The notes beneath the pieces are model-generated. The model had not been told where the DNA came from. It saw only the letters and a program-made list of their open reading frames with translations, and made no database searches. Position numbers and translations under genes: made by a program. A stretch of DNA of 64,000 nucleotides, taken from positions 88,816-152,815 of the forward strand of contig NZ_JANQTA010000018.1 of assembly GCF_028278985.1 (NCBI RefSeq). Direction: 5' to 3'. The DNA comes from Candidatus Nitrosopumilus sp. (lineage in GTDB: Archaea; Thermoproteota; Nitrososphaeria; Nitrososphaerales; Nitrosopumilaceae). Positions 40,097-59,012 of this stretch are shown here, piece after piece (the stretch's first letter is position 1; each line of letters begins with the position of its first letter).

Positions 40097-40654
40097 TTAT
40101 TTTTCGATTCCCTTTTTCTTTTCATAGACGTAGATACCATCTAGGAAAACTCTATGATCTTTATTTTTTACTTTTGTTTTTAGTTCAATGTTAGCTGCAG
40201 TTTGTGTAATGTCTGTCCAAACTTCTCCAGTAAGTAAAACATCTTCTCCTTTTGGAATTACTTTGGTGTTTCCTACAATTGATGTTGTTCTAGGAGCTCT
40301 TTCACCTTGGAAGTTTTCAATTAAAATTTTCTTTCCTTCAACTTTTACTGTAATTGGAAAGTGTGCAAAGACTACTTTCATTTTGATAGTGTAACCTTCA
40401 ATGAGTCCTTCACAAATATTTCTGATTAATGATCTTGCTGCATGCAAAATTGCATAATCTCTTTTTTTGTGTTCAATGGTTTTTAGAATTACTTTTCCTT
40501 CAGTAATTTCTAATGTTACTGGAATACTTCTAAAACTTTGATGTGTTTTTCCTAGTGGACCTTCGAAAGTTAACATGTGTTTTTTCTGTGTGACAGTAAC
40601 TCCTTCCGGAATCACAACTTCATCTTGGAATTTTTCAATTTGCTCAGTAGACAT
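40097..40654 (-). CDS. rpl6: Ribosomal protein uL6
   Basis: A 185-residue large-subunit protein with the two uL6 repeats. VTQKKHMLTFEGPLGKTHQSF is the first, and the IKMKVVFAHFPITVKVEGK region the second. It binds 23S rRNA near the sarcin-ricin loop. It overlaps rps8 by 11 bases. Last ribosomal gene of this operon in the window. Confidence 0.95.
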   Translation of the reverse strand: MSTEQIEKFQDEVVIPEGVTVTQKKHMLTFEGPLGKTHQSFRSIPVTLEITEGKVILKTIEHKKRDYAILHAARSLIRNICEGLIEGYTIKMKVVFAHFPITVKVEGKKILIENFQGERAPRTTSIVGNTKVIPKGEDVLLTGEVWTDITQTAANIELKTKVKNKDHRVFLDGIYVYEKKKGIEK

Positions 40655-41036
40655 ATCCTATCAAAAACCCTCCAATTCCTTTTTGTGTTGCATCATGATG
40701 AGACATTACTCCTTGATTTGTTGTTACCAATAACATGCCTCTATTGTATGCTGGTAGGTATTGTTGCTCCCAATTGTTGAACTCATCAGTTTTTACTTTG
40801 AATCTTGGTGAAATTGCACCACATTTTGTTATTTTTGCTAATAGTTTGATTTTGAATTTTCCTCCTCTTTTGTCATCAACATGCTCAAATTCTCCGATGT
40901 ATCCATCTCTTTGTAGAGTTTTGAGAACCTCAATTCCTAATTTTGATGTTGGAAGGATAGTGCATTCACTCTTTCTTCTTGTTTCATTATTGAAAATTGT
41001 GACAAATAGATTTGCTAAAACATTACTTGCTGGCAT
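40644..41036 (-). CDS. rps8: Ribosomal protein uS8
   Basis: A 130-residue protein. It starts MPASNVLANLFVTIFNNETR and contains the conserved C-terminal MLLVTTNQGVMSHHDA element that binds 16S rRNA. It follows rps14 by 4 bases and overlaps rpl6 by 11. The plus-strand ORF 40735-41064 is a shadow. Confidence 0.96.
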   Translation of the reverse strand: MPASNVLANLFVTIFNNETRRKSECTILPTSKLGIEVLKTLQRDGYIGEFEHVDDKRGGKFKIKLLAKITKCGAISPRFKVKTDEFNNWEQQYLPAYNRGMLLVTTNQGVMSHHDATQKGIGGFLIGYVY

Positions 41037-41040
41037 GGTA

Positions 41041-41220
41041 TCACCTATTTTTCCTAAATCCTAAAGAAACAGCTACTTCTCTGAAGCATCTTCTGCATAT
41101 CATCAAGTCATATTTCTGAATAACTGCAGTATAATCTCCGCATCTTTTACACCATCTTGATCCTCTGCCAAAGTCGTGTTTTTTTCTTCCAGTAAATTCG
41201 TAAGATCTATCTTTTGCCAT
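41041..41220 (-). CDS. rps14: Ribosomal protein uS14 (zinc type)
   Basis: Not in the ORF track. A 59-residue protein with C24/C27 (CKRC) and C42/C45 (CRRC) binding zinc, and the C-terminal FREVAVSLGFRKNR. It fills the rpl5-rps8 gap in the usual archaeal order. Its start overlaps the rpl5 stop by one base. Confidence 0.97.
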   Translation of the reverse strand: MAKDRSYEFTGRKKHDFGRGSRWCKRCGDYTAVIQKYDLMICRRCFREVAVSLGFRKNR

Positions 41221-41741
41221 TATGCTACAGTCACTCCAAATTCTTTTGCTAGATAATCCTTTGCTTCTTGGCTTGTAATGATGTGAGATTTTCCAACACT
41301 TGCTTTGTGTTTACTTCTTGTTCTAACACCATAACCAGGTCTTGTTAATGTAACAGCAATTCCTAATCCTAAAATTCCAATTTGAGGATCATATTTTACA
41401 CCTGGAATATCGATGTGTTCACTAATTCCAAATGAATAATTACCAAAGTTGTCAAATGATCTGCCGTTAACTGTATTTCCTTTTGCTTCTAACAATCTTT
41501 TTAGTAATGCTTTTGCATCTTCTCCTCTGATTGTTACTGCTGCCCCGATTGGTTCTCCTTTTCTTACTCCCCAATCTCTTTGAGTTTCTTTAGCTTCTCT
41601 AGCGCATGATCTTTTTCCTGAGATTTGATCAAGTGCTTTCTTTGCAATTTCAATTACATCGCCAGATTTTCCTACGCCCATGTTTAATACAACTTTTTCA
41701 AGTTTGATTTTTTTCATTGAGGATTCAGTTGTTTGAGACAT
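41220..41741 (-). CDS. rpl5: Ribosomal protein uL5
   Basis: 173 residues. KIKLEKVVLNMGVGKSGD and FGNYSFGISEHIDIPGVKYD are family hallmarks. It binds 5S rRNA. Four bases separate it from rps4e. Confidence 0.96.
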   Translation of the reverse strand: MSQTTESSMKKIKLEKVVLNMGVGKSGDVIEIAKKALDQISGKRSCAREAKETQRDWGVRKGEPIGAAVTIRGEDAKALLKRLLEAKGNTVNGRSFDNFGNYSFGISEHIDIPGVKYDPQIGILGLGIAVTLTRPGYGVRTRSKHKASVGKSHIITSQEAKDYLAKEFGVTVA

Positions 41742-41745
41742 AATA

Positions 41746-42462
41746 TCACTTTAATTGAATAATTGGTTCCTCTTTTCCGATTGGCATTATGATGTCTGCT
41801 GGAATTTCGATTTTTCTTTCTCCTAGTGCAAGAACAACTCTTTTTGGAAGAATAAATGTACCTTCTTCGACACTTTCGATTTTACCGATTTGTCCTGCAT
41901 TGATTCCACGAGTTACCAAACCTTGGCAACCTGTTTCTAATTTGATTACTTCAATAATTTTTTGACTTGGAATTTCAATCAAACATGTATCTCCAACACT
42001 AACTTTAGTATCCGAAATTGTAGAACGCCCATCATGGAAACCAATTTGCATTTTTCCTTTGTTGATTGTTGTCTTTTTTGTGACGATGACTAATTTTTTA
42101 GATTTTTCTGATTCGTTAATTTTAATTGGTTTTAGTAATTTTCCTTCGGTTGGAACTAGACGATAAATGTCTGAAACATTTTCTAGCTCAACTACATCCA
42201 TTAATCCGATTGCATGATGAAGTGATTTTCTAACAACACCGTCAATCTTTACTTTGCCTGAATAGATTGATGTTTTTGCTTCTCTCAAACTTGTTACAAT
42301 CTTTAACATGTCTCTGAGAAATACTGCTGTTGGAACTGAATAGTGTTTTTTGTGTGCACCTGGTCTTGTAGTAATTACAAATCTTTTGTCTTTTCTTGTA
42401 ATGCCCCAAAATTGAGGTGCCATTTGTCGTTTGAGTTTTTTACTTCCAGAAATGCTTACCAT
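41746..42462 (-). CDS. rps4e: Ribosomal protein eS4
   Basis: A 238-residue archaeal/eukaryotic protein. It has SGSKKLKRQMAPQFWGITRKD at the N-terminus, an S4-like RNA-binding part, and a KOW segment (RGINAGQIGKIESVEEGTF) near the end. It overlaps rpl24 by one base. Standard position in the archaeal operon. Confidence 0.96.
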   Translation of the reverse strand: MVSISGSKKLKRQMAPQFWGITRKDKRFVITTRPGAHKKHYSVPTAVFLRDMLKIVTSLREAKTSIYSGKVKIDGVVRKSLHHAIGLMDVVELENVSDIYRLVPTEGKLLKPIKINESEKSKKLVIVTKKTTINKGKMQIGFHDGRSTISDTKVSVGDTCLIEIPSQKIIEVIKLETGCQGLVTRGINAGQIGKIESVEEGTFILPKRVVLALGERKIEIPADIIMPIGKEEPIIQLK

Positions 42463-42962
42463 TAATTCTCATCTTCCTTTTTTTCAGATTTTTCTTCTGC
42501 TTTTGTTTCTTTAGGTGCTTCTTTGACTGTTTCTTTTGGTTTTTCAGCCTTTGTTTCCTTGGGCTCTTCCTTTACTGTTTCTTCTTTAGGCGTAGTTTTA
42601 GGCATGCTACTTGGGTTTTTGCCTTCTAATTTTGCTATTCTCCATTTATCATCTGTGTTTAATGATTTTACAACTAAGTTTGATGTGTGAATGTATACGT
42701 CGTATTTTTCTCCTCTAGTTTGCTCTTTCTTAATTCCTTCAATAGCAACACTACTTTTTTGAGTTGATACTTGTGAAACTTTACCGTCTACTCCTGCAAA
42801 TTCTCCTCTAACAATTGTGACGTTATCGCCTTCGACAACTCTTACACTTCGTTTTCCATATTTCTTTTGTAGATCCTTTGATAGTGCACTGCCAAGTTGT
42901 TTACTTTTTGTTTGGTATGATGCACGATAAATCATATTGTTACGCATTTTAGTTGGTTTCAT
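42462..42962 (-). CDS. rpl24: Ribosomal protein uL24 with Lys/Glu-rich tail
   Basis: 166 residues. The KOW motif ([21 protein letters not shown]) is at about 40-65 and the conserved [10 protein letters not shown] follows. The last about 50 residues are a low-complexity [10 protein letters not shown]-type extension not found in most archaeal uL24, which are about 120 residues long. The core binds 23S rRNA, and the tail may be flexible and exposed. Confidence 0.94.
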
Positions 42963-42966
42963 CTTT

Positions 42967-43389
42967 TTACACCACCATTGATGCCAAGTTAGCTACTCTT
43001 GGCCATTTTTCTGAAGCTTCTGCTGCTACTGGTCCTTTGATGTCTGTACCTTTTGTTTCTCCTTCTGGAGTGATTAATACTGCTGCATTATCCTCAAAAC
43101 AAACTCTTACTCCGTTTAATCTTCTAACTGCATATTTTTGTCTAACAATAACTGCACCATACACTTGCTTTCTTAATTCTGCTGGACCTTTCTTTACAAC
43201 AACATTACAAAAGTCACCAACGGCTGCTGCTGGCAATCTTGAAACTCTTGTTTTGTGTCTTGGAACATTAATTACTTCTAAAATTTTAGCACCAGAATTA
43301 TCTGCACATACAATTTCAGCTCCGACTGGAATTGATCTAGTGACATATGGACGGAATTCTTCTACTCCTTTACCTGCTTGTTTTGCCAT
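42967..43389 (-). CDS. rpl14: Ribosomal protein uL14
   Basis: A 140-residue protein with [20 protein letters not shown] and [11 protein letters not shown] typical of uL14. It lies at the subunit interface. It is followed by rpl24 after 4 bases and its start codon overlaps the rps17 stop by one base. The 148-residue plus-strand ORF is antisense shadow. Confidence 0.96.
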
Positions 43390-43712
43390 TATGATCTAAC
43401 CTCCACAACAACATATGATACTGATTTTGATATTGGTCTGCATTCTGCAGTCAATACTGTATCGCCTAGTTCAACATCAATACATGATGGAACATGTGCA
43501 TGAATGCTACTTTTTCCTCTTGCATATCGTTTGAATTTGTTATAGTAAACTGGTGCATCTTTTTGTAAGGTGATTGTTTGTTTTGCTTTGTTTCCTGTAA
43601 CTTTTCCTTCAAAGAGTTTTCCTCTAATGGCTAGATTTCCACAGAAAGGACAATTTTTGTCATCACATTCTCTCTTTGGATCTTTTACTTTAAGGCCGAT
43701 ATTTCTAGTCAT
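43389..43712 (-). CDS. rps17: Ribosomal protein uS17
   Basis: A 107-residue archaeal-type uS17 with an extra N-terminal CDDKNCPFCG cysteine cluster (possible zinc site), then FEGKVTGNKAKQTITLQKD and HVPSCIDVELGDTVLTAECRP. It overlaps the upstream rnp1 by 4 bases. Confidence 0.95.
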   Translation of the reverse strand: MTRNIGLKVKDPKRECDDKNCPFCGNLAIRGKLFEGKVTGNKAKQTITLQKDAPVYYNKFKRYARGKSSIHAHVPSCIDVELGDTVLTAECRPISKSVSYVVVEVRS

Positions 43713-43975
43713 GATTTTCCTCCTATTCTATCAAATGGTCTTTTTTGGATATTTGAACCATTAACAATTGCTAAAGAACTTCCGATTGAGAATTCCCAAC
43801 TATTGTTTGCTTTTGCAATTGATTTAATTCCGTTTTCTGTATTTAATGTGAACATCGATTTTGTTTCATTTATGATTTTTCCATTTAACCCTACAATTTG
43901 AGGATTAGATGATTCTACAATTTTGGTGTTTAATCCAATAAATTCATGTGATGTAATGTTTGTAGTTGTAATCAT
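43709..43975 (-). CDS. rnp1: RNase P protein component 1 (Rpp29/POP4)
   Basis: An 88-residue Sm-like barrel protein. EFIGLNTKIVESSNPQIVGLNGKI and NETKSMFTL are typical. It assists the RNase P RNA in tRNA 5' processing. It sits between rpl29 and rps17, the usual archaeal position, and overlaps both neighbours by 4 bases. Confidence 0.9.
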   Translation of the reverse strand: MITTTNITSHEFIGLNTKIVESSNPQIVGLNGKIINETKSMFTLNTENGIKSIAKANNSWEFSIGSSLAIVNGSNIQKRPFDRIGGKS

Positions 43976-44178
43976 TTTTCTTTCTTCATCTCGTTTAATC
44001 TGGTCAGCATTCTTGCGATGTCATGTCGAAGTGGTTTTAGTTTTCCACTTTCTTTTCTTAATGTACCTTTAGCTCCATCAACACGTAATTTTGCTAACTC
44101 ACTACGTGATTCTTGGATTTTACTTTTAAGATCTTTTTCGTTCAAGTTGTTAATTGTTTTCATACTGATTCTGGTCAT
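43972..44178 (-). CDS. rpl29: Ribosomal protein uL29
   Basis: 68 residues forming two helices: [20 protein letters not shown] and the C-terminal [17 protein letters not shown]. It lies near the exit tunnel, where SRP and nascent-chain factors dock. It overlaps rps3 and rnp1 by 4 bases each. Confidence 0.94.
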
Positions 44179-44930
44179 TTCAATTTGGCCTCCTCTTCCT
44201 CTAGTGTTTCAAGTTCTTTCATCTTTTCTTCTTCCATTGCAATTTGTTCTGATTCTGTTCTTGCTTTCTTTTCAGCTTCTGTTTCATCTCTCATCTTTCC
44301 AGTTTCTGCATCTTTGACTTGTTTTGCTTTCTTTGGTTTTTCTGCCTTTAACTCAAATTCTGGAATGAATTTTTCTTTTCTTGCAATTCTAATTCTGATT
44401 CCAATTAATCCCATTGGGGTTCCTACATGTGCAATGTCTTCATCAACAATAACTTCTGCATGATGACCTGCTCTTGGCAAAACTCCTGCAGTATGTTTCT
44501 CAAATGCTGAACGGTCACCTCTTAATTTTCCTGAAATTGTAATTTGAACACCCATGGCACCATTTTCCATGATTTGTTTTAGAGTCCACATGGTTGCTCT
44601 TCTAAATGCAGTTCCTCTTTCAAGGTGTGATGCCATTCTGTTACACATTACGCTTGGTGATAATTCTGGCTTGTCAATTTCAACTACTGATATTTGAGGG
44701 CTCTTTAATCCAAAGTCTGTTGACAATTTTTCAGTTAGTTCTCTGATTCCTGAACCTTTTCTTCCAATGACAATTCCTGGTCTGGTAACATGTAATGCAA
44801 CCCTTGTACCTGTTGGTGTTTTTGAAATTTCTGCGTGAGAAAATCCTGCTTCTTTAATTGCATCTCTGAGATAATCTTTGAGTAGCATCATGTTGTAGTT
44901 ATCTTTGATTACGTTTTTGACAGATGACAT
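44175..44930 (-). CDS. rps3: Ribosomal protein uS3
   Basis: A 251-residue protein. It contains the KH domain [20 protein letters not shown] and the C-terminal [14 protein letters not shown]...[15 protein letters not shown] part. The last about 50 residues form an acidic/basic helical tail ([12 protein letters not shown]-like end), longer than in most bacteria. It lies at the mRNA entry. Confidence 0.96.
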
Positions 44931-44933
44931 TTT

Positions 44934-45401
44934 CTAAATCTCCTGGGCCACCAATTCTACATGAGTTAATACATTATTCTTTGGGGTTGCTCTTCCCATT
45001 GCTCTTGGGATGAATCTTTTTACAATCACTCCTTTGTGAACAGTTGCATTTACAATTCTTAATCTGTCTAAATCCATTCCTTTGTATTCTGCATTTGATT
45101 CTAAATTATCTAAAACTTTGATAAATTCGTGAGCTGTTTTTTGTGGATAACGTCCTGACATCATTCCAGGGTCTGATTTGTGTCCTACTTGATTTTTGAA
45201 TCTTCTAAATGCAATTGCTCTGTCTTTGTGAACTACTGCTTGCAAGTAATCTCTTGCTTTTTCAATCGATAATCCTTTGATTGCAACTGCAACTTCTCTT
45301 GCATGTTTATGAGAAATGTCTTTTTCTCTTAATGAAGAACGTACATGACGAGTTGAGTCATAATTTTGGAAAGCGTAACCGAATCTACCCATACTAATCA
45401 C
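44934..45401 (-). CDS. rpl22: Ribosomal protein uL22
   Basis: 155 residues from a GTG at 45401, or 152 from the ATG at 45392 (MGRFGYAFQNYD). HVRSSLREKDISHKHAREVAVA and VHKGVIVKRFIPRAMGRATP belong to uL22, whose loop lines the exit tunnel. The GTG overlaps the rps19 stop. Confidence 0.94.
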   Translation of the reverse strand: MISMGRFGYAFQNYDSTRHVRSSLREKDISHKHAREVAVAIKGLSIEKARDYLQAVVHKDRAIAFRRFKNQVGHKSDPGMMSGRYPQKTAHEFIKVLDNLESNAEYKGMDLDRLRIVNATVHKGVIVKRFIPRAMGRATPKNNVLTHVELVAQEI

Positions 45402-45793
45402 TTCAATGGTACGTAGAGACTGGATCTTGATGCTCCTACACCTGGTGCACCGTGTGAAACTCTCTTGTTTGTTATGACATATTCTCCCAAGTAATGTCCA
45501 ATCATTTCTGTTCTGATTGTAACTGGAAGGAATTCCTTTCCTGAGAAAACATTTACTGTAACATCTACCATGTAAGGTAAGATAATCAAGTCTCTAACAT
45601 GTGTCTTGATTGGATTCTTTAATTTGCCTGCTTTTGCAGCTTTGATTTCTTCAATTAGTTTTCTCTTACCATCTGTAATTCCTCTGGTAAGAGATCTTCT
45701 TTGTCTAGCGTTGAACAATTGGAATAATTTTTCTAATGACATGTTCTCTAGTTCTTCCTTAGGAATTCCTCTGTATGAAAATTCTTTAACCAT
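45398..45793 (-). CDS. rps19: Ribosomal protein uS19
   Basis: 131 residues. THVRDLIILPYMVDVTVNVF, then IRTEMIGHYLGEYVITN and HGAPGVGASRSS are the conserved uS19 elements. Only 44 bases separate it from rpl23, so rpl2, usually found here, is absent. Confidence 0.96.
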   Translation of the reverse strand: MVKEFSYRGIPKEELENMSLEKLFQLFNARQRRSLTRGITDGKRKLIEEIKAAKAGKLKNPIKTHVRDLIILPYMVDVTVNVFSGKEFLPVTIRTEMIGHYLGEYVITNKRVSHGAPGVGASRSSLYVPLK

Positions 45794-45837
45794 GATTCAT
45801 CTCCTCTGCTTGTGTTCTTCGAGTTTTAGTGTCCATA

Positions 45838-46104
45838 TTATAGCATTCCTATCTTTGTTGCGAGGTCTCTTGCTTTTGCGGTATCTGTGAACTGAACAAA
45901 TGCTTTTTTGCCGTAAATTGTTCTGGCAGTGTTAACATTTGTTACTTTTTCGTTGTATAGTGTGTTTACAGCTTCAGCGATTTCTGGCTTACTTGCAGAT
46001 CTCTCTACAATAAAACAAATCTTACTTTCATTTTCAACCATTGCAAATGTTTTTTCTGTAATGTATGGTTTAATGATAATTTTACTTGCTTGATCTACAT
46101 TCAT
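45838..46104 (-). CDS. rpl23: Ribosomal protein uL23
   Basis: An 88-residue protein with IKPYITEKTFAMVENESKIC and FIVERSASKPEIAEAVNTLY typical of uL23. It sits at the tunnel exit and binds 23S rRNA. It overlaps rpl4 by 4 bases. Confidence 0.95.
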   Translation of the reverse strand: MNVDQASKIIIKPYITEKTFAMVENESKICFIVERSASKPEIAEAVNTLYNEKVTNVNTARTIYGKKAFVQFTDTAKARDLATKIGML

Positions 46105-46913
46105 TGTGTTTTCACCATTATCTCCAAGTGTGTTGATTTGATCTTTCCAATTTCTTCAATAGCTGATTTTGTATATACTGTTAATCTAATAGGATCTGAG
46201 CCTGGTGCTAAATCTAAAACGCTAAGATCTTTAACATTTGTTGCTTCGACTCCTGGTAATGCACCGATTGCTTTTGAAATATTTGTTGCATCTTTGGTTA
46301 CAAACAAAACACTTTTTCCTACTTTTTTACTTCTTCCTCTAAGTCTTGATTGACCAGAGCGAGCTTTTCTTGCATCAAGTCTTTTGATATCTTGAGATAG
46401 TTTCAATGAATCTAAGACTTTGGTAATCTCACTTGTTTTAGAAATTGATTCAATGTCATCTGAAACAATAATTGGGAATGATTCAATTCCTTCTACTTTA
46501 TGTCCTCTCGATTCGATTAATTCCTTTGATGCAGTAGCTGCAATTGCTGAACATAATGCTAATTTCTTTTCTTTTTTGTTTAATTTTTTGTAAATGACTT
46601 TTTCAACAATTGGTGGATGAGCTTGTCTTCCTCCTCTTGTGGATGCAACTTCGGCACCTTGACCTTGTCTTCCACCACCACCACCTTGGGCTCTTGCTAC
46701 ACGAGAAACACCTTGTCCTGTTGGAGGATCATTAGAGTCTGCAACTACATCCATTCCTGCTGTTGGTTTTCTTCCTTGTGGTTGGAATTTGTGTGAGTTT
46801 AGATTAGTGTAGGCTTTGTGAATCAATTCCTTTCTATAAGGTGTTGAAAAGACTAATGGAAGTTCAATTTCTCCATCTTTTGTTCCAGAAGAATTAGTTA
46901 CTGTAGTTTTCAT
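46101..46913 (-). CDS. rpl4: Ribosomal protein uL4
   Basis: A 270-residue archaeal uL4. VFSTPYRKELIHKAYTNLNS and the glycine-rich loop VARAQGGGGGRQGQGAEVAS, which reaches into the exit tunnel, are clear. IFVKEATN-like VLFVTKDATNISKAIGALPG follows near the end. It overlaps rpl3 by one base. Confidence 0.96.
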   Translation of the reverse strand: MKTTVTNSSGTKDGEIELPLVFSTPYRKELIHKAYTNLNSHKFQPQGRKPTAGMDVVADSNDPPTGQGVSRVARAQGGGGGRQGQGAEVASTRGGRQAHPPIVEKVIYKKLNKKEKKLALCSAIAATASKELIESRGHKVEGIESFPIIVSDDIESISKTSEITKVLDSLKLSQDIKRLDARKARSGQSRLRGRSKKVGKSVLFVTKDATNISKAIGALPGVEATNVKDLSVLDLAPGSDPIRLTVYTKSAIEEIGKIKSTHLEIMVKTQ

Positions 46914-47930: not shown

Positions 47931-47940
47931 TCTATTAAAC
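47931..47940 (-). promoter_or_regulatory. TATA box of the ribosomal operon
   Basis: GTTTAATAGA on the minus strand, closely similar to the EF-2 box GTTTAATAGC. It lies 26-35 bases before the rpl3 ATG at 47905. Confidence 0.6.
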
Positions 47941-47950
47941 CAAGTGTTAC

Positions 47951-47984
47951 TTGGTTAACCTACTATTTTTTAATGGTTAACCAA
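47951..47984. promoter_or_regulatory. BirA-like bipartite palindrome upstream of rpl3
   Basis: TTGGTTAACC (47951-47960) and GGTTAACCAA (47975-47984) are exact inverse copies 14 bases apart. The pattern matches the BirA operator layout TTGTNAACC-N14/15-GGTTNACAA known in bacteria and some archaea. It lies about 10 bases upstream of the rpl3 TATA box. The same element occurs in the biotin locus at 57621. Binding by the archaeal biotin regulator is inference. Confidence 0.5.
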
Positions 47985-47997
47985 CTGTGCCTAAAAT

Positions 47998-48108
47998 TTA
48001 TGGTTGAAGCAATTCTGTTGTAATGTTGTAAATTGTGTACGCTCCAATAATAATTCCAACTACACCCATTCCGATAGCTAACAATAAAAAATTCTTTTTT
48101 TCAGCCAT
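47998..48108 (-). CDS. Tiny membrane protein (36 aa) before rpl3
   Basis: Not in the ORF track. One hydrophobic helix (NFLLLAIGMGVVGIIIGAYT) lies between MAEKK and a short tail ending LLQP. It starts 4 bases after the SPOUT gene stop and is co-transcribed with it. Its size is like that of Sec or respiratory accessory subunits, but no assignment is possible. Confidence 0.6.
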   Translation of the reverse strand: MAEKKNFLLLAIGMGVVGIIIGAYTIYNITTELLQP

Positions 48109-55491: not shown

Positions 55492-56622
55492 TCACATGAA
55501 TTTTGTGTAAGCTTTATCAAAAATATCTAGTGTATCATTGATGTGTTTTTCAGTTAGCCATGCAGTGACAGAGACTCTTAGTCTTGCTTGATTTTTTGCT
55601 ACAGTTGGATATCTAATTGGTTGAGCAAATAACCCCTTTTCAAACAAATATTTTCCAAAATCCATCGCTGTTTTTTCTTTTCCAATAATTATTGGAATTA
55701 TGTGTGATGGTGATTTGATTTCAAATCCTATACTCCTAAGTCCTTTTGATAATTTGTTTGTATTTATTTCTAGTTTTTTTCTTTGTTTTTCTCTATTTGA
55801 TGTAATGCGCTTCAGAGAATGTTCTACAAGAAATGATGGAAGTGCTGATGTATAGATAAATGATTTTGATTTATTGATACATAAATCAATAATGTTATTT
55901 TTTGCTGCAATGTATCCTCCGAATGATCCTAATCCTTTACTTAAACTGCTAATATACAAATCAACTTTCTTTGAAACATTAAAGTGACTTGGAGTACCTT
56001 TACCGTCTTTTCCTACAACAAAATCACCGTGAGCATCATCAACAATTGTAATCGCATTGTGTTTTTCTGAAAGATTTGTAATTTGTTTAAGTGATGAAAA
56101 GTCTCCATCCATACTAAAAATTCCTTCAGTTACAATAAACTTGGTTTTTGCTTTTTGTTTTAGTTTCTTTTCTAAATCTAAAATGTCGTTATGTTTGTAA
56201 ATTACAATCTTTGCATCCGATAGTTTACATGCTTCAATTATACTTGCATGGTTTAATTCATCACTGAAAACAATGTCTCCTTTTTTTGCAATAGTTGAGA
56301 TTGCTCCAAGATTTGCCATATAGCCTGTTGGATAAATCAGACTGTTTTGTTGAGACTTGTGTTTTGCAAGAATTTTTTCTAATTTTTTGTAGGATTCATC
56401 ATTTCCTGATACTAGTCTTGAACTTGATTGTAGTTGTTTGTTTGAAATTTTTGTTGATGGAATTCCTAGATAGTCATTTGAAGACAAATTTAGTAGTTTT
56501 TTACCTTTGATAGTAATCTGTGCCCCTAGAGCCTTACCATACCTCAGGGTTCGATATAGATTATTTTTTCTAATTTGCTCTAATTCTGAATCAATAAAAT
56601 CCAGTTTATGCTTTGAGGCCAA
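55492..56622 (-). CDS. bioF: 8-amino-7-oxononanoate synthase
   Basis: A 376-residue PLP enzyme that condenses pimeloyl-thioester with alanine. LNLSSNDYLGIPS, the LVSGNDESYKKLEKILAKHK region (GS/GN), VDDAHGDFVVGKDGKG and SSLSKGLGSFGG (with the PLP lysine) are all present. It overlaps bioB by 17 bases, which indicates coupling. Near the end of the transcript. Confidence 0.94.
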   Translation of the reverse strand: MASKHKLDFIDSELEQIRKNNLYRTLRYGKALGAQITIKGKKLLNLSSNDYLGIPSTKISNKQLQSSSRLVSGNDESYKKLEKILAKHKSQQNSLIYPTGYMANLGAISTIAKKGDIVFSDELNHASIIEACKLSDAKIVIYKHNDILDLEKKLKQKAKTKFIVTEGIFSMDGDFSSLKQITNLSEKHNAITIVDDAHGDFVVGKDGKGTPSHFNVSKKVDLYISSLSKGLGSFGGYIAAKNNIIDLCINKSKSFIYTSALPSFLVEHSLKRITSNREKQRKKLEINTNKLSKGLRSIGFEIKSPSHIIPIIIGKEKTAMDFGKYLFEKGLFAQPIRYPTVAKNQARLRVSVTAWLTEKHINDTLDIFDKAYTKFM

Positions 56623-57580
56623 TTTTTTCTATCATTTGACGGTCTTTTCCAGCCTCATTTCCGCCCATGGTGAGATATCCTTCAGTAATGATTCCGTTTG
56701 CGCCGCTTTGTAGAAGTTCTTCTCCTGCATCATTTAGTTTTGATTCTCTGCCTCCTGAAATTTTGATTACTGATTCTGGAAGTAAGAATCGTACCACAGA
56801 AAATATTCTAACAATTTCGGAATTTGGCAGATCGGTCTGAAGCTCTAATGGAGTTCCTGGCATTGCAACCAATATGTTAATTGTAACTTCTTCAGGATAT
56901 AATCTTCCAAGCTCTAATGCTAACTCTAATCTTTGCTCTCTTGTTTCTCCTAATCCTATAATTCCACCAGTACATAATTCTAATCCTGCATCTCTTGCTA
57001 TTCCTAACGTTTCTAATCTGTCTTCGTATGTGTGGGTTGTACAAATTTCAGAGAATTTTGATTTTGCAGTTTCTAAATTATGATTGTATCTTTTTACTTT
57101 GAGTTCTTTGAGTTTTTTTGCTTGTTCTGGAGTTAGAAATCCTAAACTACATTCAACACTAATTCCTACTTTATTGTTAATCTCTGAAATAATCTTACAA
57201 ACTTTCTCAAAATCTTTTGGTGATGGTTCTCTCCAAGCTGCTACCAAACAATATGATTCAGCACCCTCTTCTTTGGCTTTTCTTGCTTTTTCTACAACTT
57301 CTTCAGGTTGAGGTAATTGGTATGTTTCAATACCTGTGTCAAAAAATGCTGATTGCCCACAAAATGTACAGTCTTCACTACATGCATTTTTCTTAATGTT
57401 GTTTAGTTGTTCTACATCGACTTTTTTCCCGTTAAAATCTTGTGTAATTTCATTAGCACAAATTGCCAAATCCTTGAGATTCTCTTCAGGAATGTTTAGA
57501 AGTTTTTCTGCTTCTATGGCATTAATGCCAATTCCAGAAAATACCTTTTCTTGACATTCTTTGATAAACTCTAAACTCAT
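56606..57580 (-). CDS. bioB: Biotin synthase
   Basis: A 324-residue radical-SAM enzyme inserting sulphur into dethiobiotin. The SAM cluster is C67-x3-C71-x2-C74 (CSEDCTFCGQ). The further cluster ligands fall in YCLVAAW, VECSLG and the CTGGIIGLGE region. It is the first gene of bioB-bioF and has a TATA-like box and a palindromic operator upstream. Confidence 0.95.
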   Translation of the reverse strand: MSLEFIKECQEKVFSGIGINAIEAEKLLNIPEENLKDLAICANEITQDFNGKKVDVEQLNNIKKNACSEDCTFCGQSAFFDTGIETYQLPQPEEVVEKARKAKEEGAESYCLVAAWREPSPKDFEKVCKIISEINNKVGISVECSLGFLTPEQAKKLKELKVKRYNHNLETAKSKFSEICTTHTYEDRLETLGIARDAGLELCTGGIIGLGETREQRLELALELGRLYPEEVTINILVAMPGTPLELQTDLPNSEIVRIFSVVRFLLPESVIKISGGRESKLNDAGEELLQSGANGIITEGYLTMGGNEAGKDRQMIEKIGLKA

Positions 57581-57620: not shown

Positions 57621-57653
57621 AGGTTAACCTGCTAGGTATAGGGGGGTTAACAG
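57621..57653. promoter_or_regulatory. BirA-like bipartite operator upstream of bioB
   Basis: Read toward bioB the site is CTGTTAACC, 15 bases, GGTTAACCT (plus strand 57653-57621). The arms are inverse copies, and the 15-base spacer equals that of known BirA operators. It lies about 10 bases upstream of the bioB TATA box and touches the bioA stop codon. Its place in the biotin locus supports control by biotin. The regulator gene is not in the window. Confidence 0.6.
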
Positions 57654-59012
57654 TTAGATTACTTGATTTTTTGCAGATTTGATGGTTTGAATTGCCCTTT
57701 GAATTAATGAGTCTAGTTCTTTTTCTGCTATGGCTAATGGGGGCACAAGCATGACTATATTGCCTAGAGTTCTCAAATAGATGCCATTTTTCTTACCTTC
57801 TTCAAAGAAAATCTTGTTAATTGATTTTTCTGGTGAAATTGGAGTCTTTTGTTTTTGATCCTGTACTAATTCTATTCCCATAAGCATTCCTTTGTGACGA
57901 ATGTCTCCCACATAATCAATTTTTGAAATCTCGTCATAGTATTTTTCAAACACTTTGGATGTTTTTTGGATCTTTTTTATCAGATTATTCTTCTTGTACA
58001 TTTTCAAATTTTCATTTGCAACTGCAGCAGCAAGTGGATTTCCTGTAAACGTATGTCCATGGAAAAGATGTCTCCACTCATTAAACTCTCCCAAAAATGA
58101 ATCATAGATTTTTTTATTTGCTAGAGTTGTTGCCATGGTCAGATATCCTCCTGTTAACATCTTACCATATGCAACAATATCTGGAGTAGATTTTTGCTCA
58201 TCATATTGTAACATAGAACCTAATCTTCCAAAACCTGTTGCAATTTCATCTAAAACAAATAGCACGCCATATTTTTTACATAACTGAGAAATTTTCCTTT
58301 GAAATCCTTTAGGATAAATTATTACACCTCCAGCTACTTGTGCACCACTCTCCATAACAAACGCTGCAATATCTTCTTTCTTTCTAAATCGTTTTTCAAT
58401 TTTATCTAAACAGTAATTTTGATAATCTGCAATTGTCATTTTTTTTGGGAATCTGTAATTATTTGGAACTGGAAATTGTATTGTTGAAAATAATTGTTTT
58501 TTAAATTTACCAAAAAACTCTGGTACATATCCAACTGACATTGCACCAAATGTATCTCCATGATATCCATTTTCAATTGTTGCAATCTTTATTTTTTTCT
58601 TTTCACCAATGTTTTTCCAATATTGTAATGATAGTTTGATTGCAATTTCCATTGCAGAAGAACCATTGTCTGAAAAAAATACTTTGTACATTCCAGGTGA
58701 AATTTTGATAAGTGATTTTGCTAGTTGCTCAACAGGCTCATTTGTAAGATTAAACATGGATGTGTGTTGTGATATTTTGCTTTGATTTGTGATTGCTCTG
58801 ACTAACTGAGGGTTTGAATGCCCCCATACATTACACCACATTGATGCAACTGCATCAATCATTTTGTTACCTTTTGAATCTGTTAACCAGACACCTTTTG
58901 CCTTTGAAATGTTGGTAAAATCAGACCATTCTTTCATCTGGGTGTTTGGATGCCATACGGAACTAGAATTTTTCAAGTATCTTGAATATTGACAATCTTC
59001 ATAAAAATTCAA
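57654..59012 (-). CDS. bioA: DAPA aminotransferase (7,8-diaminononanoate synthase)
   Basis: A 452-residue class III PLP aminotransferase. VWHPNTQMKEWSD begins it, SMWCNVWGHSNPQL follows, and the PLP site is VLDEIATGFGRLG with lysine in VAYGKMLTGGY. It converts KAPA to DAPA using SAM in most organisms. The start codon lies 35 bases from the divergent bioD start, so both promoters overlap. Confidence 0.93.
   Translation of the reverse strand: MNFYEDCQYSRYLKNSSSVWHPNTQMKEWSDFTNISKAKGVWLTDSKGNKMIDAVASMWCNVWGHSNPQLVRAITNQSKISQHTSMFNLTNEPVEQLAKSLIKISPGMYKVFFSDNGSSAMEIAIKLSLQYWKNIGEKKKIKIATIENGYHGDTFGAMSVGYVPEFFGKFKKQLFSTIQFPVPNNYRFPKKMTIADYQNYCLDKIEKRFRKKEDIAAFVMESGAQVAGGVIIYPKGFQRKISQLCKKYGVLFVLDEIATGFGRLGSMLQYDEQKSTPDIVAYGKMLTGGYLTMATTLANKKIYDSFLGEFNEWRHLFHGHTFTGNPLAAAVANENLKMYKKNNLIKKIQKTSKVFEKYYDEISKIDYVGDIRHKGMLMGIELVQDQKQKTPISPEKSINKIFFEEGKKNGIYLRTLGNIVMLVPPLAIAEKELDSLIQRAIQTIKSAKNQVI

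Follow-up and report, generated by a model that had tools for sequence, protein, structure and literature searches.

We propose that the biotin protein ligase BirA, probably together with biotinyl-5'-AMP, controls two operons of this Nitrosopumilus-type archaeon, the biotin synthesis genes bioBF and the ribosomal-protein operon headed by rpl3, by reading an operator at each promoter; on the evidence of the DNA sequence, we put the probability of this reading at roughly 0.65. The proposal draws on two operators, their conservation, a common promoter geometry, a helix-turn-helix (HTH) domain in BirA and one co-loss, all of which are observed. BirA operators in archaea were reportedly already proposed by Rodionov in 2002, and the bioB operator belongs to an already known kind; the novelty is the rpl3 site. 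Both sites lie in a window of 64,000 nucleotides (the whole stretch of DNA analysed here) from contig C17 of a 1.69-Mb Nitrosopumilus-type genome, labelled G000 (Table 1). Below, g1, g2 and so on are genus labels (g1, Nitrosopumilus; g11, Nitrosarchaeum), and G000 and its like are genome labels.

Table 1. Coordinates of the two operators, their promoters and the neighbouring genes in the window.
Feature	Position	Strand	Remarks
bioB operator	57621..57653	-	CTGTTAACC-N15-GGTTAACCT on the bioB strand, AGGTTAACC-TGCTAGGTATAGGGG-GGTTAACAG on the plus strand; proximal arm 57621-57629, spacer 57630-57644, distal arm 57645-57653
bioB TATA box TTTATTAA	57603..57610	-	12 bp downstream of the proximal core arm; relatives keep TTATAAAT/TTTATAAA
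bioB, biotin synthase, radical SAM + BATS	56606..57580	-	ORF + Pfam; ATG at 57580
bioF	55492..56622	-	ORF + Pfam; downstream of bioB, which it overlaps
bioA	57654..59012	-	ORF + Pfam; upstream neighbour of bioB
rpl3 operator	47951..47984 (core 47954-47981)	-	TTGGTTAACC-N14-GGTTAACCAA
rpl3 TATA box TTTAATAG	47932..47939	-	14 bp downstream of the proximal core arm
rpl3, ribosomal protein L3	46913..47905	-	ORF + Pfam; heads the ribosomal-protein cluster
L4, L23 and further ribosomal-protein genes closely after rpl3	40097..46913	-	ORFs, identified by eye (Pfam for L3 only); presumed to share the rpl3 promoter

A palindrome at bioB and a ligase with a DNA-binding domain

The earlier note had proposed a BirA-type operator at bioBF, directly upstream of the bioB TATA box, and this was borne out: the element and its position relative to the TATA box are as described, and sequence, count and conservation agree. 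The operator takes up the space from the bioA stop codon (57654), which adjoins it, to the bioB promoter; downstream of it, bioB and bioF are encoded on the same strand, and bioD and bioA are divergently oriented. Within the window, GTTAACC-N13..17-GGTTAAC occurs twice against an expectation of zero in shuffled windows. When spacers of 12 to 18 bp were allowed across the whole genome, exact matches were found only at bioB and rpl3, each with a gene end on one side and a TATA box on the other, and the reversed-pattern control gave none. Extra matches at up to three mismatches looked like chance, those with one or two mismatches being inside coding sequence; a one-mismatch site at C25:58792, within coding sequence beside an AAA-ATPase gene, was rejected. 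Relaxed matches in distant classes and in family f3 (L252-L256, L359, L368-L371, L373) were likewise dismissed as chance because they fell inside genes, beside an apparent tRNA or in unrelated context and had no bio, rpl3 or birA gene in their vicinity.

Among relatives, bioB promoters were compared by a core score out of 12 with a cut-off of 11. Sixty of 79 unique promoters scored at least 11, and none of the shuffled bioB promoters reached 11. The spacers of these 60 are N14 (39 promoters) or N15 (21), and no other length occurs; the operators mostly lie 71-81 bp before the ATG, and their arms are 98-99% identical versus 56% for the spacer. The published bacterial BirA box is TTGTAAACC-[N14/15]-GGTTTACAA (PMC545781). 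Set against the arms of the bacterial consensus, TTGTNAACC/GGTTNACAA, the bioB site agrees at 13 of 16 specified bases with a spacer of 15, and the rpl3 site at 14 of 16 with a spacer of 14. In other genera, the variation in the bioB arms falls on the position that the consensus leaves open: g15 has TTGTAAACC-N14-GGTTTACAG and TTGTCAACC-N14-GGTTTACAA, g16 has TTGTAAACC-N14-GGTTAACAT, g18 has TTGTAAACC-N14-GGTTTACGC, and g20 has TTGTTAACC-N15-GGTTAACAA. Another family of the order, f2, carries GTGAACC-N14-GGTTCAC. In this family and in g15, g18 and g20, all deeper lineages, the bioB operator has the form of the bacterial box. The conservation that the earlier note asked for upstream of bio genes in related genomes is therefore found in 60 of 79 promoters, in other genera and in one other family, and the bioB element is very probably a BirA-type operator.

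Could the inverted repeat instead be an RNA element, such as a terminator or leader hairpin, or a product of chance? Pairing of its arms is possible, and at bioB it comes directly after the bioA stop codon. However, no U-tract follows the repeat, the spacer keeps a fixed length of 14/15 across many genera while its sequence is free, and the shuffle expectation is zero; moreover, the repeat is upstream of the TATA box and therefore outside the transcript from that promoter. We regard this explanation as very improbable.

Two other conserved features were noticed in bioB promoters. Seven promoters from Nitrosarchaeum (L072, L080, L082, L085, L087, L089, L105) have another conserved block (ACGCA ... 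CTAATCTTTTTTAATG) instead of the operator, perhaps the site of a different regulator. In L060, L061 and L064 (also L055, L065 and L086), a stretch like TGCCTAAAATTGACAATAATGGAAAG is conserved between operator and TATA box, or in the operator's place.

A single biotin protein ligase (BPL) gene is present in the genome; it encodes HTH_11, catalytic and C-terminal domains. The N-terminal HTH_11 domain, whose presence the earlier note wished to see checked, is intact (residues 13-65, E 8.7e-14, Pfam), and PDB-sequence matches show that the protein is similar over its full length to the BirA proteins of S. aureus and E. coli, DNA-binding domain included. In 21 genomes, conservation is 0.83 for the HTH region versus 0.75 for the catalytic region. 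Group I biotin protein ligases, for example that of Pyrococcus horikoshii, have no DNA-binding domain; the protein of this genome shares their catalytic and C-terminal BPL domains but, unlike them, has HTH_11. The system thus resembles the biotin regulons of E. coli, B. subtilis and delta-proteobacteria in its palindrome (arms of the TTGTNAACC type, N14/15 spacer, upstream of bioB), in having one or two sites per genome and in its single BPL with an N-terminal HTH. It differs from the bacterial operators in lying upstream of an archaeal BRE/TATA, in having arms fixed at GTTAACC/GGTTAAC in this genus and, as a regulon, in a second target that is a ribosomal-protein operon.

The earlier note had further suggested a search for the motif upstream of bio, birA and carboxylase genes, and had read the operator as control of carbon-fixation capacity. 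The search was positive at bioB only: no site was present at up to three mismatches near the only biotin carboxylase gene of the genome (C12:12.6 kb), and none was found in the birA upstream regions of 20 relatives checked. Direct control of carbon fixation is therefore unsupported, and the carboxylase could be affected only indirectly, via biotin supply. In several delta-proteobacteria, too, birA itself has no site (PMC545781).

The second operator, upstream of rpl3

The rpl3 match is the second exact one in the window and had not been listed by the earlier note; of the operators described here, it is the best conserved and the least expected. Among sampled genomes of g1, g5, g11 and g13, 56 of 57 unique rpl3 promoters carry the pair of arms, always with an N14 spacer and 74-78 bp before the ATG; in the unique promoters of these genera, the arms are 97% identical versus 59% for the spacer. 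A fifth genus, g9, has the pair in its single genome. In most other genera, the rpl3 promoter has no pair; its TATA box is strong, and a single GGTTAAC-like stretch comes after it. The rpl3 pair thus seems to have been recruited later, in one clade, the bioB operator apparently being the older. bioBF belong to biotin synthesis, transport or use and rpl3 does not; for this reason, we class the rpl3 element, by its sequence, as a BirA-type site that falls short of an established regulon member.

BirA might read bioB only, with another regulator that has a similar half-site reading rpl3, and part of the likeness between the two sites might descend from an older GGTTAACGAC stretch of the rpl3 promoter. 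Such a stretch does occur alone, right after the TATA box, in the rpl3 promoters of other genera; the outer arm bases differ slightly, being TCG/CGA at rpl3 and CTG/CCT or CAA at bioB; and the literature searched held no link between BirA and ribosomal proteins and no precedent for regulation of rpl3 by biotin. Yet the two promoters agree in their 7-bp arms and N14 spacing and nearly agree in the distance to the TATA box, and two patterns of loss described below also count against separate readers, so that we find this alternative doubtful.

Several observations concern the surroundings of the rpl3 site. In g2, g4, g14, g16 and g17 (L202-L216), the core rpl3 promoter TATATAATGGGGTTAACGAC is highly conserved, with a lone GGTTAAC between TATA box and start that is a possible ancestor of the rpl3 proximal arm. 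Between a SPOUT-like gene and rpl3, the window holds an ORF of 36 residues with one membrane span (47998-48108, minus strand), and other genomes show similar C-termini ahead of rpl3.

Distribution of the operators and of the HTH domain of BirA

A BirA with a conserved HTH is found in most genera, and its distribution was compared with that of the operators. Genera g9 and g11 have lost the bioB operator and kept both the rpl3 operator and HTH_11, which argues against a BirA that reads bioB only. The same holds for G161, the only genome of the window's own genus with a BirA lacking HTH_11, in which the rpl3 operator is gone as well; this co-loss counts as one event, and the genome concerned is GC-rich and diverged. 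In g12 and g21, BirA has no HTH_11 and both operators are absent, and no operator was found in several other families of the order whose BirA likewise lacks the domain. The converse also occurs: an HTH without a strict site is seen in G133 and g8, and probably in some outer genera. A genome-wide search gave no strict site in G133, where HTH_11 is intact, or in G129, where the BirA match reaches into the HTH region, and the BirA search in G146 returned no match; the rpl3 promoters of these three genomes were left out of the promoter comparison.

The joint presence of a vitamin gene and ribosomal proteins would also suit a growth or nutrient regulator other than BirA that controls bioBF and the ribosomal-protein operon together, and the lack of an autoregulatory site at birA in the 20 relatives fits such a regulator. 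A global regulator should, however, have more than two sites per genome; in addition, the bioB operator of other genera takes the form of the bacterial BirA consensus, and most genera have a BirA with a conserved HTH. We therefore think it unlikely that BirA reads neither site, and infer that it probably reads both.

Promoter geometry and a possible mechanism

From the proximal core arm to the start of the TATA box, the distance is 12-13 bp at most bioB promoters and 14-15 bp at rpl3. In the bioB promoters of g14 and g20, the arm almost touches the TATA box, a closeness that suits repression by occlusion. According to a title cited in PMC4016012, E. coli BirA covers a forty-base-pair site, and a dimer bound here would therefore reach the BRE. 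Both operators lie completely upstream of the TATA box, a location that archaeal activators may use as well. One of these, OxsR of Haloferax volcanii, whose motif lies at -50 to -74, activates from such an upstream position (PMC9426492); it belongs to another DNA-binding family and has another motif, but the position of its site relative to BRE/TATA is similar. We consider activation by BirA only somewhat less probable than repression.

On the repression model, the bifunctional ligase and regulator BirA (group II, with an N-terminal winged helix-turn-helix) would bind the element as its operator, and the same operator type would have been recruited to the rpl3 operon promoter in the Nitrosopumilus/Nitrosarchaeum clade. 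In E. coli, biotinyl-5'-AMP builds up on BirA once all acceptor proteins are biotinylated, and repression follows (PMC4016012). A comparable dependence on biotinyl-AMP is expected here from the BirA family. With too little apo-carboxylase to biotinylate, BirA would keep its biotinyl-5'-AMP, dimerise and bind the two palindromic arms just upstream of BRE/TATA, where it would hinder TFB/TBP and lower transcription of bioBF and the rpl3 operon. During growth, abundant apo-carboxylase, the entry enzyme of the 3HP/4HB cycle, would drain biotinyl-AMP from BirA and release both promoters. If the E. coli logic holds, low carboxylase synthesis would thus turn both operons down, and high synthesis would release them.

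We consider it somewhat more probable than its opposite that BirA directly regulates the main ribosomal-protein operon in the Nitrosopumilus/Nitrosarchaeum clade, and that ribosome synthesis is set by the level of biotinyl-AMP, that is, by the demand for biotinylation of carboxylase that a CO2-fixing cell has yet to meet. In the ocean, ammonia-oxidising archaea rank among the most abundant cells, and to our knowledge little is known of their transcriptional regulators. The two operators suggest that the marine members may tie ribosome production to biotin use. If so, growth would be controlled in a new way, by a vitamin-sensing enzyme acting on ribosomal-protein genes, with the cofactor demand of a carbon-fixing carboxylase read directly at a ribosome promoter; the BirA regulon would reach beyond biotin metabolism, and in Nitrosarchaeum the rpl3 operon would be its sole recognisable target.

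As a separate observation on these promoters, TCTCACATGG is conserved right before the TATA box at rpl3 in g1, g5, g11 and g13, beyond what would be expected for a BRE alone.
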